From: Bdellovibrio bacteriovorus
Lineage (GTDB): Bacteria > Bdellovibrionota > Bdellovibrionia > Bdellovibrionales > Bdellovibrionaceae
Reading direction: 5' to 3'
Length of the DNA: 64,000 nucleotides
Assembly: GCF_001592755.1 (NCBI RefSeq)
Contig: NZ_LUKF01000014.1
Coordinates: 186,841 to 250,840 of the forward strand
Made by a program: the position numbers and the translations under genes
Notes under the pieces: model-generated
What the model was told of the DNA's origin: nothing
Databases searched by the model: none
The model's input: only the letters and a program-made list of their open reading frames with translations
Shown: piece by piece, positions 5,802-63,507 of the stretch
Layout: each line of letters starts with the position of its first letter
Position numbering within the stretch: position 1 is the stretch's first letter

Positions 5802-6179
5802 ATGGAAAGAACTTACAAAGTAAATTCTCAGTTATTGCCTCAAGGATTTCCGCGCGAGTTTGATGCGCATATTTATTTTTCGAATGAGTCCTTGCAGTTT
5901 GCGACGGAGTTACGTGAAAAGGCGATAAAAGAATTTGCGGGGCGCCAGGTCTTTGTCGGACAGATGATTCCTGAAGCTATTGGTCCTCATCCGATTCCGA
6001 TGTTTGAAATCAATTTTCCGTTGTCTCTATTTACAGAAGTAGTGCTCTGGTTGATGAAAGCACGCGGGGACCTTTCGGTTTTAGTTCACGAGCTGACAGG
6101 CGATGATCTTTACGATCACACTCAAGCAGCGCTTTGGTTGGGCAAAGAAGTGCCGCTTCTTTACGAGCGCTTTAAATAA
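5802..6179 (+). CDS. DOPA 4,5-dioxygenase family protein
   Basis: The 125-aa protein shows the conserved blocks of the small DOPA 4,5-dioxygenase family: DAHIYF near the N-terminus, IGPHPIPMFEINF in the middle, and LSVLVHELTGDDLYDH near the C-terminus. The conserved His residues of these blocks would bind a metal. Full length for the family. The bacterial substrate is usually unknown; the name comes from plant and fungal betalain enzymes. The stop overlaps the end of the convergent GIY-YIG gene by 8 bases. Confidence 0.8.
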   Translation: MERTYKVNSQLLPQGFPREFDAHIYFSNESLQFATELREKAIKEFAGRQVFVGQMIPEAIGPHPIPMFEINFPLSLFTEVVLWLMKARGDLSVLVHELTGDDLYDHTQAALWLGKEVPLLYERFK

Positions 6180-7746
6180 AATCGATTTTTCGATCTTGGT
6201 TTTTGAGCTTATTGAGCTCGGTGAAAAGCACGGTCATGCGATCATAAGTATCAATCGACAGATCTTTCCACGAGCCGCGTTGTTTTATCAGCGGGGCTTC
6301 AGGTTCAACGACTTTTCCATTTTGAATTTTCAAAGTCATCGTTTCTTCAATTTGAATATGCACGTTCAAAAGCTTTGTCAGGCGTTTGGTGCGAAGATAG
6401 GTTGCCGCAGACCTGATAAAGTGGCGCTCATATTTATCGGCCAAGTCTTCGGGGGTCAGTTCAACTTCTAAGATTTCTTCTTCGCTTTCTTCGGGCGTGC
6501 TTTCGTTTGACTCGGAGGTTTCAGAAGCTTCGACTTCTTCTAGATCTTCCGTCTCTTCTTCCTCTTCGAGTTGACGATACCAATTCAAACCTACAGCTAA
6601 AATAGAACGAACCGACGTAAACGCGTCTTTGGAAAAACCATGGCGCTCGCAGAAAAGATCAAAGCCTTGTTCTAAAAGAGTGGCGTCAATCGGCTCATAG
6701 AACATGTTTTCGTTAAACGACTTATCTTGCAAAGAAGCGCTGAGCTTGAGGATCGAGTCCAAAGCCAGCGCATTTGAAAAGGGGCCAATACAATGATTTT
6801 CATCTGCTTCCGTTTGGAAGGAGGTGAAATCTCGACTGAAGAATGCTAATTCCCGTCGGCCGGTTTTTAAACTGATGTTGTATGGCGGATCCAGGCGTTT
6901 GATCTCGTCTGTTTCTAAGAGTGCCGCTTCCAGAGGACTTCCTACCGGAGTGACATGCAGATCCCAAACTTGCGTTAACATCTCTAACTTGCGAGTGTCG
7001 CGATTTTTTTGCCCGCGGAAATAGCTATTCACGCGATCATGCAAGGAGGTCGCTTTACCCACATAAAGCACTTCGCCCCAACGGCTCATCATGCGATAAA
7101 CGCCGGGCTGCTTGGGAAGACTTAAACGTTTTTCTTTTGGCAAAGGATATTCGTACTTTACCCGCGCGGCCTTCGGTGTGTCTTGAAGCCACTTTTGCAG
7201 GTCTTCGATAGAATGAATTCCTTTTTCTGACAAAGCCGCCGTTAATCCCTGCCAGATCACTTGGGTGGCCTGCACATGATTAGAAGCGCGCTTTAACTCA
7301 CCTGAAGGGCAGCCAAAATATCCTGCAAGTCCCTTGATTCCGCGCGTGGGCAGATTCGGGAACAGACGCTTTGCAATTTCGTGCGTGCACAGAATTGAAA
7401 ACGGCATTTCTTCTTGAAGCTTTTCATAAGCATCCAACAAGAAAGGTCGCTCAAATTGAGCAAAATGAATCACGGCGATGGGATTTGCGCCCAGATTTTT
7501 ATCGATAAAGCTTTTTAAGTCGGAAAAGACACTGGCAAACGGGCGAGCCGCTTCCATGTCTTTTTTGTAGATGCCCGTGATGAATTGAATACGACGAGGA
7601 ACTTCCTCGGCCTGTTCAATCAAAGAGCTTTCGATATGCTCGCTGGCGAGAGAGGCCCAGGCCATCTCAAGAATGCTTGCCGTGTCGGGTTTAGCTCCGG
7701 TTGTCTGAAGATCTAAAAATAGCACGGGTGTTTTAAGAAGACTCAT
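6172..7746 (-). CDS. exonuclease-like domain fused to GIY-YIG nuclease
   Basis: Residues 5-165 look like a DnaQ/DEDDh exonuclease fold, but key acids are changed: motif I reads FLDLQTTG (Gln for Glu), motif II HFAQFER (Glu for Asp), and motif III NHVQAT lacks the Asp, so catalysis is doubtful. Residues ~210-300 form a GIY-YIG nuclease of the UvrC type: GVYRMM, LYVGKA, LHDRVNSYF and the acidic LETDEIK are all present. A Glu/Asp-rich stretch lies near 415-455. The start at 7746 is chosen because its ATG overlaps the TGA of the upstream helicase gene (ATGA), with GGGAG at the right distance; a start at 7761 is less likely. Third gene of the set; incision at damaged DNA is a reasonable inference. 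Confidence 0.75.
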   Translation of the reverse strand: MSLLKTPVLFLDLQTTGAKPDTASILEMAWASLASEHIESSLIEQAEEVPRRIQFITGIYKKDMEAARPFASVFSDLKSFIDKNLGANPIAVIHFAQFERPFLLDAYEKLQEEMPFSILCTHEIAKRLFPNLPTRGIKGLAGYFGCPSGELKRASNHVQATQVIWQGLTAALSEKGIHSIEDLQKWLQDTPKAARVKYEYPLPKEKRLSLPKQPGVYRMMSRWGEVLYVGKATSLHDRVNSYFRGQKNRDTRKLEMLTQVWDLHVTPVGSPLEAALLETDEIKRLDPPYNISLKTGRRELAFFSRDFTSFQTEADENHCIGPFSNALALDSILKLSASLQDKSFNENMFYEPIDATLLEQGFDLFCERHGFSKDAFTSVRSILAVGLNWYRQLEEEEETEDLEEVEASETSESNESTPEESEEEILEVELTPEDLADKYERHFIRSAATYLRTKRLTKLLNVHIQIEETMTLKIQNGKVVEPEAPLIKQRGSWKDLSIDTYDRMTVLFTELNKLKNQDRKIDFI

Positions 7747-10109
7747 ACTGGTGTCTCCCAAAACTCTTTAATGTCATTCAAAATTTGGCGAGATACTAGT
7801 TCTTGCGGGGACTGTGTGAACCAACCCTCGGGCATAGTTTCATAGTAGCTTGTCTGTAAAAAGCGCGAGTCTAACATGACGATCACACCACGATCTGTTT
7901 CAGAGCGAATCACGCGGCCTGCTGATTGAATAGCCTTAGCCATTGCTGGATACACGTAAGCATAGTTAAAGGCATGCTCTTTCCCATAACGAAGCTCATA
8001 GTAAGAACGAATTTGTTCCCGTTCAAAATCAAAGTTAGGCAGAGCGGGACCAATGACGAAAGCCCCAATCAACATATCACCCGGAAAGTCGACACCTTCT
8101 GAAAACACGCCCCCTTGGACACCCAATAACAAAGTCGGCTTTTGCCCTGACTTTAATTCATCTAAGTACTCTTGAGTCTGCTTTTGCTTCATCTCGCGCT
8201 CTTGCACCAGAATTTGAAAGTCTGGCAAAGAAAGCTTTGATTCCACCATGCGCATAAATTCAAAACTTGGGAACAAGGCGATGTAGTTCCCTTTCTTTAA
8301 AGCGGTGATGCGCTGAATGGTTTCGGCAATCTTCCCGCTGCTAGCATGGCGATCCGAAAATTTTGTCGAGATTTGCGGGATGATAAGCAGTTTGCGGTTT
8401 TCTTTCTCAAACGGTGAAGAAAACTCAACTTGTTTTGTTGATTCCGTCGGAAAACCCATCAGCTCTTGATAATAAGTGAAAGGTTTTAAAGTCGCCGAAA
8501 ACGCGACGACGTTTTTGAATTCTTTGTAAGCTAAAGACAAATGCTCGGAAGCATCACAACAAGTGATCTTCAGCATTTCGGTGAAAGTACTTCTTTGATA
8601 AGTTTGAAAAAACTCTTCACCACTTAAAGTCAAAGACGCTACGAACTCTGACCACATGTTCATCATACGTAAGATGGGGTCTTGTGACAGAATCTCGGTT
8701 TCTGATTCTAGATAAGACGTCGTCATTTCGCGAACGTCTTGTTCCAGTTCTAAGAATGGATCTAGATCAATGTTTACCTTTTTAGAAACGCCATCTTTGC
8801 CATAAGAAGAAATCAACCGGCGCGCGCGCTGACAAAGGGCTTGGGCCTGCATATAAAATGTCGGCGGCAGACGAGAAAAATCTTTTTCTAATAAAGCCAG
8901 TTGTTGAGTTGAAATACTGGGAGAAAAATAATCTTGAGCACGAGAAGGCAGATTGTGAGCCTCGTCGATCACTAGATTGGCTTTTTCTTTCTGCTCTAAA
9001 AGTGGCTCCGCCAAGCGGCCAATCAAACTTCTTGGCGCAAAAACATAGTTGTAGTCACCAATGACGACATCAGCTCGCTCAATCGCCTCTACGGACAACT
9101 CAAACGGGCAGACTTGATACTCTTCACCCATTTTTTTGAGTTTTTCACTGTCCAGGCTGCGAAGTCGCGAAAGCTTATTCACTAAGTCGTGTTCAGCGAC
9201 TTTTTTGTAATAGTCTTTCGCGAACTCACAGTACTGAGGATTGCACAAAGGCTCGGCTTTTAAGCACATCTTGCTTTTGGCAGTGATAGTAAGTGAACGA
9301 ATTTTACAACCTTGCTCTTGCAAGCGTTCGACAGCTTCTTCAGCGACCTGATGTTGCGAGTTTTTTGGAGTGACGTAAACGACTCTTTGACCGCGAGGCA
9401 AAGCCTCTTTCAACGACGGATAAAGAACACCAATGGTTTTTCCTAATCCTGTCGGCGCTTGAACTAAAAGTGGATTTTCACTTTGCAGGTTCTCTGAAAT
9501 CGTATCGACGAGCTCTCTTTGGCCTTTGCGCGGGGATGCGAAGGGAAATGTCATTTCTTCGCCGGCCTTCTGGCGTTTTTTAAAAAGCTTTTCTTTTTCT
9601 TTCGTCTCTTCGACTAATTCCTCAAGACGGATTTTCAACCACGCTTCATAGCCATCTAGATCCAGTTCGATATTTAGATCATGCGATTTAAAATTGCGCA
9701 AAGAAACCAGATGCAGTTTTAAAGTAGGGAACTGACCCGTTTGCAGAAAATGAATGTACCCATAAGTGCGCAGTTGCCACACGTAAGGATGGTTCGGTTC
9801 TCTTTCTAATTTTGCGCGCAGTTCATCAATATCGAAGGCGGATTTGATTTCTTCAATCAAGCCTGTCGCTTCGACAAAGCCATCGGCCCGGCCCGAGACG
9901 ACAAATTCATAAGGACCCGCTTCAAAAGAGTGAACTAATTTTTTTTCTGGAGTGTAGCCGGGATTTTCGCGCACGCGCTGACGTTGGATTGTGACGTGCA
10001 CTTCTTGCCCACTTGTGGGAATGGGGCCATAGCCTGAATGCGTCTCGATGCTACCAACACGAGGCGCAGGCAATGCAAATTGTTTTAGATCCAACGTTAT
10101 TTTTCTCAT
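7743..10109 (-). CDS. PD-(D/E)XK nuclease-helicase fusion, XPD/DinG family
   Basis: This protein of about 788 aa is an SF2 iron-sulfur helicase of the XPD/DinG group. Walker A APTGLGKT lies near 218-225 and the DEAH box in VIDEAHNLPSRA. Four cysteines (in MCLKAEPLC, QYCEF and QVCPF) match an Fe-S cluster domain between them. Residues ~60-95 contain GRADGF then IEEIKSA, a PD-(D/E)XK-like pattern (Asp 76, Glu 87, Lys 89), suggesting an N-terminal nuclease domain as in Cas4/RecB or Dna2. A GTG three bases earlier (10112) overlaps the TAG of the upstream gene; I prefer the ATG at 10109. It sits between a radical SAM gene and a GIY-YIG gene with 4-base-scale junctions, so the three are almost certainly one operon for DNA repair. 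Confidence 0.8.
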   Translation of the reverse strand: MRKITLDLKQFALPAPRVGSIETHSGYGPIPTSGQEVHVTIQRQRVRENPGYTPEKKLVHSFEAGPYEFVVSGRADGFVEATGLIEEIKSAFDIDELRAKLEREPNHPYVWQLRTYGYIHFLQTGQFPTLKLHLVSLRNFKSHDLNIELDLDGYEAWLKIRLEELVEETKEKEKLFKKRQKAGEEMTFPFASPRKGQRELVDTISENLQSENPLLVQAPTGLGKTIGVLYPSLKEALPRGQRVVYVTPKNSQHQVAEEAVERLQEQGCKIRSLTITAKSKMCLKAEPLCNPQYCEFAKDYYKKVAEHDLVNKLSRLRSLDSEKLKKMGEEYQVCPFELSVEAIERADVVIGDYNYVFAPRSLIGRLAEPLLEQKEKANLVIDEAHNLPSRAQDYFSPSISTQQLALLEKDFSRLPPTFYMQAQALCQRARRLISSYGKDGVSKKVNIDLDPFLELEQDVREMTTSYLESETEILSQDPILRMMNMWSEFVASLTLSGEEFFQTYQRSTFTEMLKITCCDASEHLSLAYKEFKNVVAFSATLKPFTYYQELMGFPTESTKQVEFSSPFEKENRKLLIIPQISTKFSDRHASSGKIAETIQRITALKKGNYIALFPSFEFMRMVESKLSLPDFQILVQEREMKQKQTQEYLDELKSGQKPTLLLGVQGGVFSEGVDFPGDMLIGAFVIGPALPNFDFEREQIRSYYELRYGKEHAFNYAYVYPAMAKAIQSAGRVIRSETDRGVIVMLDSRFLQTSYYETMPEGWFTQSPQELVSRQILNDIKEFWETPV

Positions 10110-10111
10110 CA

Positions 10112-11188
10112 CTATTCAATATCAAATTTGAGTTGATCACCACGACGCTGAAAGTGCTCGGTGGAGAGATCAAACTTTTTCACATTTAAACCGTATTTGC
10201 GAGTATAAAGCTTGAACATTTGCGCCATTTGGTCGGCCCGAGGCCCTTCTCCGCGCATACGCGATCCGAAGTTCGCGTCATTCAATTTGCCGCCGCGTAT
10301 ATCACGCACCGAGTTTAAAACTTTTTCCTTTTTTAACGGTTGATGGACTTCCAGCCACTCTTCAAAAATAGGGCGCACGGACGAAGGAAGTCGCAAAGGC
10401 ACGTAACCCGCGTACTGGGCTCCCGCATCTTTGGCGGCTTTTAAGATCGCCGGCATCTCGTGGTCATTCAATCCTGGAATGCACGGTGCGACGTTGACGC
10501 CAACGGGGACACCGGCTTTCGCCAAAGTTTCGATCGCTTTAAGACGAGCTGCGGGACGGGACGTGCGTGGCTCTAAGATTTGCACCAGATCATCATTCAA
10601 AGACGTGATCGAAAGAAAAACCAAAGTGCCGTTGTAAGCCGCCATCTGCGAAAGAATATCGACATCGCGAGTGACCAAAGCATTTTTAGTAATTAATGAA
10701 ACTGGATTTTTAAACTCTAATAAAACTTCAAGACAGCCGCGAGTCAGCTGCATCTTTCTTTCTAAAGGCTGGTAGCAGTCGGTGATTCCGCTCATCGCGA
10801 TCACAGCAGGCTTCCACGAAGGTTTCATCAAAGCTTCGCGCAAAAGTTTTGGAGCTTCTTCTTTCACGAAAATTTTCGATTCAAAATCCAAACCGGGTGA
10901 AAGGCCTAAGTACTCGTGTGTGGGACGAGCATAGCAATACGCGCAGCCGTGTTCACAGCCGCGATAAGCGTTGATAGAAAATGTGAAGCCGATGTCGGGG
11001 CTTTTGTTTTCCGTGATAATCGTGCGAGAAGAATCTTTCAGAACTTCCGTTTTAAGAAGAGCTTTTTCGTCCTCAAGATAATTGTCGAAATCTTCTTCGG
11101 TAGCTTCGTATTTGAGTGAGTCGTAACGATTGGTGACGTTGCTACTGGCTCCACGACCGCGGATATCTTTACGAAATTCACGAGTCAT
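10112..11188 (-). CDS. PA0069-family radical SAM protein (SplB-related)
   Basis: The CxxxCxxC cluster motif reads CEHGCAYC and is followed by YARPTHEYLG, typical of the PA0069/Rv2578c group related to spore photoproduct lyase. The family binds a 4Fe-4S cluster and S-adenosylmethionine; its reaction is not established. The start at 11188 (MTREFRKDIRGRG) is chosen because the family begins with this block. A longer reading to 11350 runs through an intergenic repeat and is rejected. Its stop touches the start of the helicase gene. The operon partners make DNA photolesion or crosslink repair plausible, but that is inference. Confidence 0.8.
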   Translation of the reverse strand: MTREFRKDIRGRGASSNVTNRYDSLKYEATEEDFDNYLEDEKALLKTEVLKDSSRTIITENKSPDIGFTFSINAYRGCEHGCAYCYARPTHEYLGLSPGLDFESKIFVKEEAPKLLREALMKPSWKPAVIAMSGITDCYQPLERKMQLTRGCLEVLLEFKNPVSLITKNALVTRDVDILSQMAAYNGTLVFLSITSLNDDLVQILEPRTSRPAARLKAIETLAKAGVPVGVNVAPCIPGLNDHEMPAILKAAKDAGAQYAGYVPLRLPSSVRPIFEEWLEVHQPLKKEKVLNSVRDIRGGKLNDANFGSRMRGEGPRADQMAQMFKLYTRKYGLNVKKFDLSTEHFQRRGDQLKFDIE

Positions 11189-11228
11189 AAGAAACAAAGT
11201 ATGCCACAAATCCCCCACCCTTCCTAGT

Positions 11229-11353
11229 CGGCTGGTGAAAAAGGCCCATCCGACTGCGTTGTCGGACTCCAGCTTGCTCTCCGACGTACTAGAAGTACGC
11301 CTCCGTGGCAGCTGGAATCCTCCGCCTTGCGGCTGGACCTTTTTGACCAACCG
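11229..11353. repeat. covarying interspersed repeat, copy A
   Basis: A 125-bp element bounded by inverted arms: CGGCTGGT / ACCAACCG outside, then a conserved G-G mismatch, then AAAAAGG / CCTTTTT. Inside are the small hairpins CCGAC-tgcgtt-GTCGG and CGTACT-aga-AGTACG and the conserved blocks GCCTCCG and CCTCCGCCTTGC. Copies B and C lie at 54587 and 63383. It begins just downstream (minus strand) of the MFS gene's stop and lies upstream of the radical SAM gene. Confidence 0.85.
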
Positions 11354-54586: not shown

Positions 54587-54715
54587 CGAGGCTTGTGAAA
54601 ACGACCCGATCGACTGCGTTGTCGGGCTTTGTCTTCCGCTCCGACGTACTAGGAGTACGCCTCCGCTGCAGCCAAAACCCTCCGCCTTGCGCTCGAGTCG
54701 TTTTGACAAGCCTCG
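54587..54715. repeat. covarying interspersed repeat, copy B
   Basis: A 129-bp copy with perfect 10-bp outer arms (CGAGGCTTGT / ACAAGCCTCG), the conserved G-G mismatch, then AAAACGAC / GTCGTTTT. Central hairpin CGTACT-agg-AGTACG; conserved GCCTCCG and CCTCCGCCTTGC. It starts 2 bases after the cpaF stop. Confidence 0.88.
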
Positions 54716-63382: not shown

Positions 63383-63507
63383 GCGCTGATGAAAAAGGCC
63401 CATCTGACTTCGTTGGAGGGCCTTTTCCTTCACTCCGACGTGCCTCCAGCACGCCTCCGTTTCGGAAAAAACCCTCCGCCTCGCAGCTGAACCTTTTTGA
63501 TCAGCGC
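63383..63507. repeat. covarying interspersed repeat, copy C
   Basis: A 125-bp copy: outer arms GCGCTGAT / ATCAGCGC, conserved G-G mismatch, AAAAAGG / CCTTTTT. Its central hairpin is CGTGC-ctcca-GCACG instead of CGTACT / AGTACG. Left half AAAAGGCCC / GGGCCTTTT also forms a terminator-like hairpin for polA. Confidence 0.88.

Follow-up and report, generated by a model that had tools for sequence, protein, structure and literature searches.

A two-gene unit of an EndoDinG nuclease-helicase and a GIY-YIG protein with a degenerate exonuclease domain in Bdellovibrio bacteriovorus

The stretch of DNA analysed here, referred to as the window, comprises 64,000 nucleotides (nt) of Bdellovibrio bacteriovorus (contig NZ_LUKF01000014.1, positions 186,841 to 250,840 of the forward strand). 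Its minus strand carries three consecutive genes at 6172-11188, which encode a radical S-adenosylmethionine (SAM) protein, a nuclease-helicase termed EndoDinG and a third protein that we call pseudo-epsilon-Cho (Table 1). An earlier reading, made from the sequence alone, had described the three genes as overlapping or touching, which was confirmed on the minus strand: the stop codon TAG of the radical SAM gene touches a GTG, and the helicase gene and the third gene overlap in an ATGA at 7743-7746. As helicase homologues align to an ATG located 3 nt beyond this GTG, the helicase is best taken as the 788-residue protein starting there. The listed reading frame of the radical SAM gene has 412 residues and begins at an upstream TTG within a repeat element; the 358-residue product is preferred. 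The conserved unit consists of two of these genes, EndoDinG and pseudo-epsilon-Cho, not of all three.

Table 1. Genes, domains and repeat at the locus, in window coordinates
Feature	Position (strand)	Extent	Remarks
EndoDinG gene	7743..10109 (-)	788 residues	PD-(D/E)XK nuclease fused to XPD/DinG helicase
N-terminal PD-(D/E)XK nuclease domain	9585..10109 (-)	~residues 1-175	H38, E55, D76, E87, K89, Q112, Y116
Fe-S cysteine region	9108..9266 (-)		C282, C289, C294, C334
Pseudo-epsilon-Cho gene	6172..7746 (-)	524 residues	DnaQ-fold pseudo-exonuclease, UvrC-like GIY-YIG and C-terminal domain
DnaQ-fold domain	7177..7746 (-)	residues 1-190	4/5 DEDDh residues replaced
GIY-YIG nuclease domain	6859..7137 (-)	residues 204-296	Y217, Y228, G230, R238, E278, N290
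C-terminal domain	6172..6849 (-)	residues 300-524	model of high confidence; no match found in the PDB
PA0069-family radical SAM gene	10112..11188 (-)	358 residues	facultative neighbour outside the conserved unit
Palindromic repeat element	11225..11352	~125 nt	between MFS and radical SAM genes; outside the pair

The core of the helicase is of the XPD/DinG type, with Pfam matches to Helicase_C_2 (6.5e-39), DEAD_2 and HBB, the first two of which are above their cut-offs. A phmmer match to PDB 9kqh_A, entitled "DNA 5'-3' helicase", extends over residues 32-763 and spans both the nuclease and the helicase. The nuclease motif, composed of H38, E55, D76, E87-x-K89, Q112 and Y116, and the four iron-sulfur (Fe-S) cysteines show no variation in two alignments, of 13 and of 22 homologues. 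The sequence-only reading was therefore right about the N-terminal PD-(D/E)XK motif, the XPD-like core and the four Fe-S cysteines. Judged by its sequence, the helicase is an already-known kind, belonging to the EndoDinG subgroup of DinG-like helicases that was described in 2025 with a representative from B. bacteriovorus HD100 (PMC11981726). The HD100 protein is reported as an endonuclease on the basis of unpublished data (PMC11981726, section 3.7), and a truncated Arch domain that misses β7 is given as a trait of the subgroup (PMC11981726).

The third protein has an RNase_T and a GIY-YIG domain, both above the Pfam cut-offs. Its best NCBIfam match is PRK07883, a fusion of a DEDD exonuclease with a GIY-YIG domain, with an E-value of 1e-44 and a score of 152.9 bits (cut-off 495); all five PRK07883 cut-offs are missed by far. 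We compared its exonuclease motifs with those of a canonical DnaQ encoded in the same genome (DLETTG, HNAPFD and HRAEEDA) and of an actinobacterial fusion from Tsukamurella (DLETTG, HNARFD and HRALDDA). Compared to these, pseudo-epsilon-Cho has DLQTTG, HFAQFE and KRASNHV, such that the DEDDh set D-E-D-H-D is changed to D-Q-E-K-H, with four of the five residues replaced, including the catalytic His. From 85 pooled loci, without those under the score limit, 81 sequences (the window's included) gave 71 distinct relatives, in all of which D12, Q14 and E99 are kept. Position 152 is occupied by K (54 relatives), N (14), Q (2) or Y (1) and never by H, and position 157 by H (60), Q (9), Y (1) or N (1) and never by D. 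As the motif states recur in 71/71 relatives and the neighbourhood is conserved, the observation is not a matter of chance. A decay of the exonuclease specific to one lineage was rejected, since the altered states are common to all 71 relatives. The motif alignment and these relatives bear out the earlier description of a DnaQ-type domain whose acidic motifs are largely lost; among the lost residues that description had named DLQ, FER and the third Asp, and had left out the catalytic His. Pseudo-epsilon-Cho would represent a nuclease fold that has stayed under tight constraint despite losing its catalytic residues.

The AlphaFold2 model of pseudo-epsilon-Cho has a predicted local distance difference test score (pLDDT) of 87.5 and a predicted template modelling score (pTM) of 0.80. 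In this model the fold of the DnaQ domain is intact, with a Z-score of 22.8 to the PolC exonuclease (PDB 9qpc) over 183 residues, and a Z-score of 20 to Staphylococcus aureus DinG (PDB 8zef). The GIY-YIG domain is nearest to that of UvrC (PDB 1yd6), as found by phmmer (2.6e-16) and also by Foldseek. Its residues Y217, Y228, G230, R238, E278 and N290, among which we take the Y, R, E and N to be catalytic, are kept in 69/69 relatives, the rows of the other two being cut short; the UvrC-like nuclease is intact, as the sequence-only reading had stated. The genome holds a separate UvrC-like frame of 652 residues that matches UvrC-type models, and hence pseudo-epsilon-Cho is not the cell's UvrC. Folded alone, the C-terminal part reaches a pLDDT of 87.5 and a pTM of 0.82. 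Searches of the PDB with this domain gave nothing convincing (best Foldseek E-value 1.9; best VIA Z-score 2.8 over 42 aligned residues), and such weak matches to a predicted structure do not show a new fold. An acidic linker of low confidence lies at 6466-6564 (-) of the window (model residues 395-427), and its length varies among relatives.

EndoDinG and pseudo-epsilon-Cho are also linked outside the window. In a set of 59 near relatives, strong matches to the third gene occur in 22 of the 24 same-genus genomes, the genus being judged by named relatives (Bdellovibrio, 80% identity), and in three further genomes (G024, G035 and G052), with a partial one in G056. The helicase is present in 31 of the 59; wherever both genes lie in the near-relative regions read, they adjoin. 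Of 290 genomes drawn evenly from the phylum, 66 contain EndoDinG, 32 pseudo-epsilon-Cho, 51 an exonuclease of the TIGR04122 family and 36 the PA0069-type radical SAM protein, all linkage counts being uncorrected for ancestry. EndoDinG is found in each of the 32 genomes with pseudo-epsilon-Cho, the gene lying downstream in 28, upstream in 2 and unlinked in 2. A survey of gene order in Bdellovibrionota, proposed with the sequence-only reading as a check, thus finds the helicase and the GIY-YIG gene co-conserved, and adjoining in 30/32 genomes. The profile of pseudo-epsilon-Cho was built largely from helicase-adjacent genes; the whole-genome searches required no adjacency and would therefore have revealed copies lying apart from the helicase.

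Genome contigs were also scanned with the EndoDinG alignment. Among the best 80 loci of a longer list, with some contigs ending near the gene, pseudo-epsilon-Cho lies behind EndoDinG in 17, including those of Melainabacteria/Obscuribacterales and Legionella. Within the order Obscuribacterales, pseudo-epsilon-Cho is present in 23 of 53 genomes searched, and the helicase adjoins in all 23. Within Legionellaceae, 14 of 140 genomes pass for pseudo-epsilon-Cho and the helicase adjoins in 13 of them; the fourteenth copy is the weakest match and has no helicase within the 12 kb read. The Legionellaceae pairs occur in same-strand order, once reversed (L213) and once divergent (L208), which argues that the adjacency is more than frozen synteny. 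Moreover, the distances of paired EndoDinG and pseudo-epsilon-Cho proteins correlate with an r of 0.947 over 54 pairs, a value from which shared ancestry is not removed.

The genes that adjoin EndoDinG in the 66 genomes of the phylum sample are pseudo-epsilon-Cho in 30, a TIGR04122 exonuclease in 27, both in none and neither in 9. TIGR04122 is the ligase-associated metallo-beta-lactamase exonuclease, which also precedes EndoDinG in 8 of the best 80 contig loci; three of these eight exonucleases were scanned with NCBIfam, and all are over the cut-off if repeat proteins are counted. In the PDB, sequence matches of this partner are beta-CASP enzymes resembling CPSF and RNase J. A kinship with SNM1 is not claimed, as the PDB sequence search at an E-value of 0.01 returned no entry named SNM1. 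A tree of EndoDinG was built by a quick method from 70 of the 80 loci and the window, with short or split rows dropped. It requires six changes for the linkage to pseudo-epsilon-Cho, at least three of which are forced by well-supported branches; several branches are long, which makes single placements unsure. This suggests that the change of partner was repeated during the history of EndoDinG. The linkage of EndoDinG to pseudo-epsilon-Cho across three phyla, together with the switch to a second exonuclease, makes this a concrete and testable biochemical system.

The radical SAM protein is a member of the PA0069 family, scoring 481.7 bits with NF033668 (cut-off 360), and misses the cut-offs of spore photoproduct lyase (PF20903, 20.8 against 27 bits; TIGR04070, 22.2 against 400 bits). 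The earlier suggestion that a relation to SplB hints at photoproducts therefore has no support. A photoproduct-repair operon of three genes, in which the radical SAM protein would reverse or sense the damage, would accord with the tight gene order in the window, which is present in 12 of 31 close EndoDinG genomes, counting that of the window, and with the association of the radical SAM gene with EndoDinG at the genome level (Fisher p 1e-10, shared ancestry not removed). However, of the 66 genomes of the phylum sample that encode EndoDinG, 11 have the radical SAM gene beside it, 14 have it at another site and 41 have none. Of the 36 genomes carrying the radical SAM gene, 11 lack EndoDinG, and the gene adjoins in 0 of the best 80 EndoDinG contig loci. 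Together with the missed lyase cut-offs, these counts make such an operon very improbable, and the three-gene module was rejected. From the repair module originally proposed, the coupled and co-conserved helicase and GIY-YIG genes are retained, whereas the radical SAM gene is a frequent but facultative neighbour; co-conservation elsewhere likewise holds for the pair and not for the radical SAM gene.

Of the eight plasmid records that match EndoDinG, three come from Legionella, each of them carrying the pair. UmuC and UmuD are encoded near the pair on all three, in addition to UdgX and Ku on the L. lytica plasmid, and LigD and Ku on the L. sainthelensi plasmid. DinB is annotated near the pair in L. 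lytica and L. longbeachae and is represented by pieces only (tblastn) in L. sainthelensi; the SOS-response-associated peptidase (SRAP) is annotated on two of the plasmids and found as tblastn pieces in L. lytica. On these plasmids (L197, L198 and L199), the pair lies inside a DNA repair and mutagenesis island of varying gene set. In addition, DinB and either UmuC or UmuDC are encoded near the pair on two Legionellaceae contigs (L204 and L205), and a further record (L202) repeats the L. lytica plasmid, with which it agrees in length and at 100% identity; most other Legionellaceae copies have no such repair neighbours in the stretch read. DinB precedes EndoDinG in 2 of the best 80 contig loci, with a lexA-dinB-EndoDinG run in a Desulfuromonadaceae contig (L123:1-4543) and a dinB-EndoDinG run in Geothrix (L187:4673-8343), so that EndoDinG may be linked to the SOS response in these two groups.

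We propose that the pair constitutes a two-protein machine for processing DNA lesions, with EndoDinG opening and cutting the DNA and pseudo-epsilon-Cho nicking it, a proposal that on present sequence evidence we hold to be evenly poised between right and wrong. The Fe-S XPD-type motor of EndoDinG would open the DNA where it is damaged or blocked, and the exposed strand would be cut by the PD-(D/E)XK nuclease of the same protein. The GIY-YIG domain of pseudo-epsilon-Cho would make a second incision of the UvrC/Cho type, most likely 3' of the lesion; Cho makes 3' incisions (PMC1564403). The DnaQ domain would not digest DNA, serving instead as a platform for docking or for reading 3' ends. A mycobacterial fusion of exonuclease and GIY-YIG domains has been suggested to degrade the damaged strand starting at the nick made by GIY-YIG (PMC1564403); this digestion, lost from pseudo-epsilon-Cho, may have been taken over by the neighbouring nuclease-helicase. 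With the exonuclease lost and a nuclease-helicase encoded next door, such a division of labour is the simplest account. The gap would be filled by host or co-encoded translesion polymerases, and the ligase-associated metallo-beta-lactamase exonuclease would often replace pseudo-epsilon-Cho where the latter is missing beside EndoDinG. The analysis shows the domains, the conserved residues, the linkage, the alternative partners and the damage-related genes near the pair on plasmids; we infer a physical complex, the side of incision, the type of lesion and independence from UvrAB. The dedicated lesion-excision system put forward by the sequence-only reading thus survives as a pair with a damage context (the Legionella plasmids and the lexA-dinB-EndoDinG run), and not in its three-gene form. 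If true, it would add to bacteria an XPD-type excision route without UvrAB. A more elaborate version, to which we give doubtful standing, is a self-contained dual-incision system without UvrAB, in which the PD-(D/E)XK and GIY-YIG domains would make the two cuts, the invariant D-Q-E pseudo-site would read 3' ends or lesions, and EndoDinG would be a plasmid-carried hub in a damage-tolerance island, with either pseudo-epsilon-Cho or the ligase-associated exonuclease as its exchangeable second nuclease.

Several observations weigh against the proposed lesion processing. Both genes are absent from two of the 24 same-genus genomes (G003 and G012), so the pair is dispensable. EndoDinG and pseudo-epsilon-Cho are unlinked in G142 and G267, and in the latter EndoDinG adjoins a TIGR04122-type exonuclease instead. 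The DNA-damage neighbourhood is found mainly on Legionella plasmids, not in Bdellovibrio, and no UvrA/UvrB-like damage sensor was seen adjoining the pair. The motif TTACN3GTAA, which we take as a LexA-type box, is found at 5813 and 23590 of the window, against a mean of 0.51 occurrences by chance; as no box lies upstream of the genes, LexA control of the operon was rejected. The same motif occurs in 3 of 30 relative regions scanned. One copy, at L106:4889, lies 14 nt before a metallo-beta-lactamase/EndoDinG pair and may be due to chance.

The pair might instead serve the general processing of replication forks, R-loops or DNA ends, trimming branched or flapped intermediates in a Dna2- or RecE-like manner rather than acting on base lesions. 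Relatives of the PD-(D/E)XK domain include RecE, EXO5, Cas4, AddA and Dna2 (PMC11981726, section 3.7), GIY-YIG domains also cut branched DNA (ANKLE1), and Ku and LigD are encoded beside the pair on one Legionella plasmid; yet the GIY-YIG domain is closest to UvrC rather than to branch nucleases, and the neighbouring translesion polymerase genes point to lesions, so we consider such a role unlikely. A defence function, in which the helicase and two nucleases would degrade phage or plasmid DNA, appears improbable. It could account for the patchy distribution, the carriage on plasmids typed conjugative and the match of the helicase to PADLOC typeIV_DinG (2.6e-117, in a scan of four window proteins). 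However, this match carries an accessory label and is limited to the helicase core (residues 182-769), the neighbour genes concern repair and mutagenesis, and the 10 pattern matches in viral contigs include no relative of pseudo-epsilon-Cho. The helicase is matched by 34 phage records, all below 60% identity, with the ten listed at 29-33%. The best reading is still a lesion-excision pair that would act apart from UvrAB.

Other features of the locus lie outside the pair. A convergent gene similar to DOPA 4,5-dioxygenase (5802-6179) overlaps with its end the end of the third gene, and a major facilitator superfamily (MFS) gene is located upstream of the radical SAM gene. The palindromic repeat element between the latter two gave 11 rows in a search of its own genome, itself included, the others having 73-91% identity and some being partial; two copies lie close together on contig C3, and two further copies are located in the window near 54590-54707 and 63385-63503. 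No RNA families or tRNAs were found in the window.

Among the titles and abstract openings listed in literature searches on the pair and its context, none described it, with most subscription journals outside their coverage. Similar to the described EndoDinG, the window helicase has an N-terminal PD-(D/E)XK domain with H, E, D, E and K, an FeS region with CCCC and an XPD core; section 3.7 of PMC11981726 names no partner gene, and the partners are added here. ExoDinG and pExoDinG join a DnaQ-type exonuclease or pseudo-exonuclease to a DinG helicase in one chain (PMC11981726; S. aureus DinG, PDB 8zef), whereas the pair described here has its pseudo-exonuclease on a second protein, fused to GIY-YIG, and a helicase with a PD-(D/E)XK domain of its own. 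Compared to CasDinG of Type IV CRISPR systems, in which the FeS domain is vestigial (PMC10450177), the window helicase has intact Fe-S cysteines.

Pseudo-epsilon-Cho shares with the actinobacterial epsilon-Cho (PRK07883; PMC1564403) the order of a DnaQ fold followed by a GIY-YIG domain of the UvrC/Cho type, but lacks an intact DEDDh site and scores below the PRK07883 cut-offs. Moreover, the one Tsukamurella fusion compared has no helicase annotated in an 11-kb plasmid stretch, unlike pseudo-epsilon-Cho. The same catalytic GIY-YIG residues occur in UvrC and Escherichia coli Cho; however, the UvrC model TIGR00194 reaches 86.2 against 285.45 bits over residues 206-337 only, other UvrC regions were not detected, and the Cho model PRK10545 reaches 36.4 against 367 bits. 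The helicase MrfA of Bacillus subtilis belongs to another helicase family, YprA. Similar to the pair described here, MrfAB combines a helicase with a protein of the DnaQ superfamily, and acts independently of UvrABC on mitomycin C adducts (PMC11194089). MrfB differs in being an active DEDDh exonuclease with a tetratricopeptide repeat (TPR) domain, and no GIY-YIG domain is named in it (PMC11194089). MrfAB shows that a helicase and a DnaQ-type partner can act apart from UvrABC (PMC11194089).

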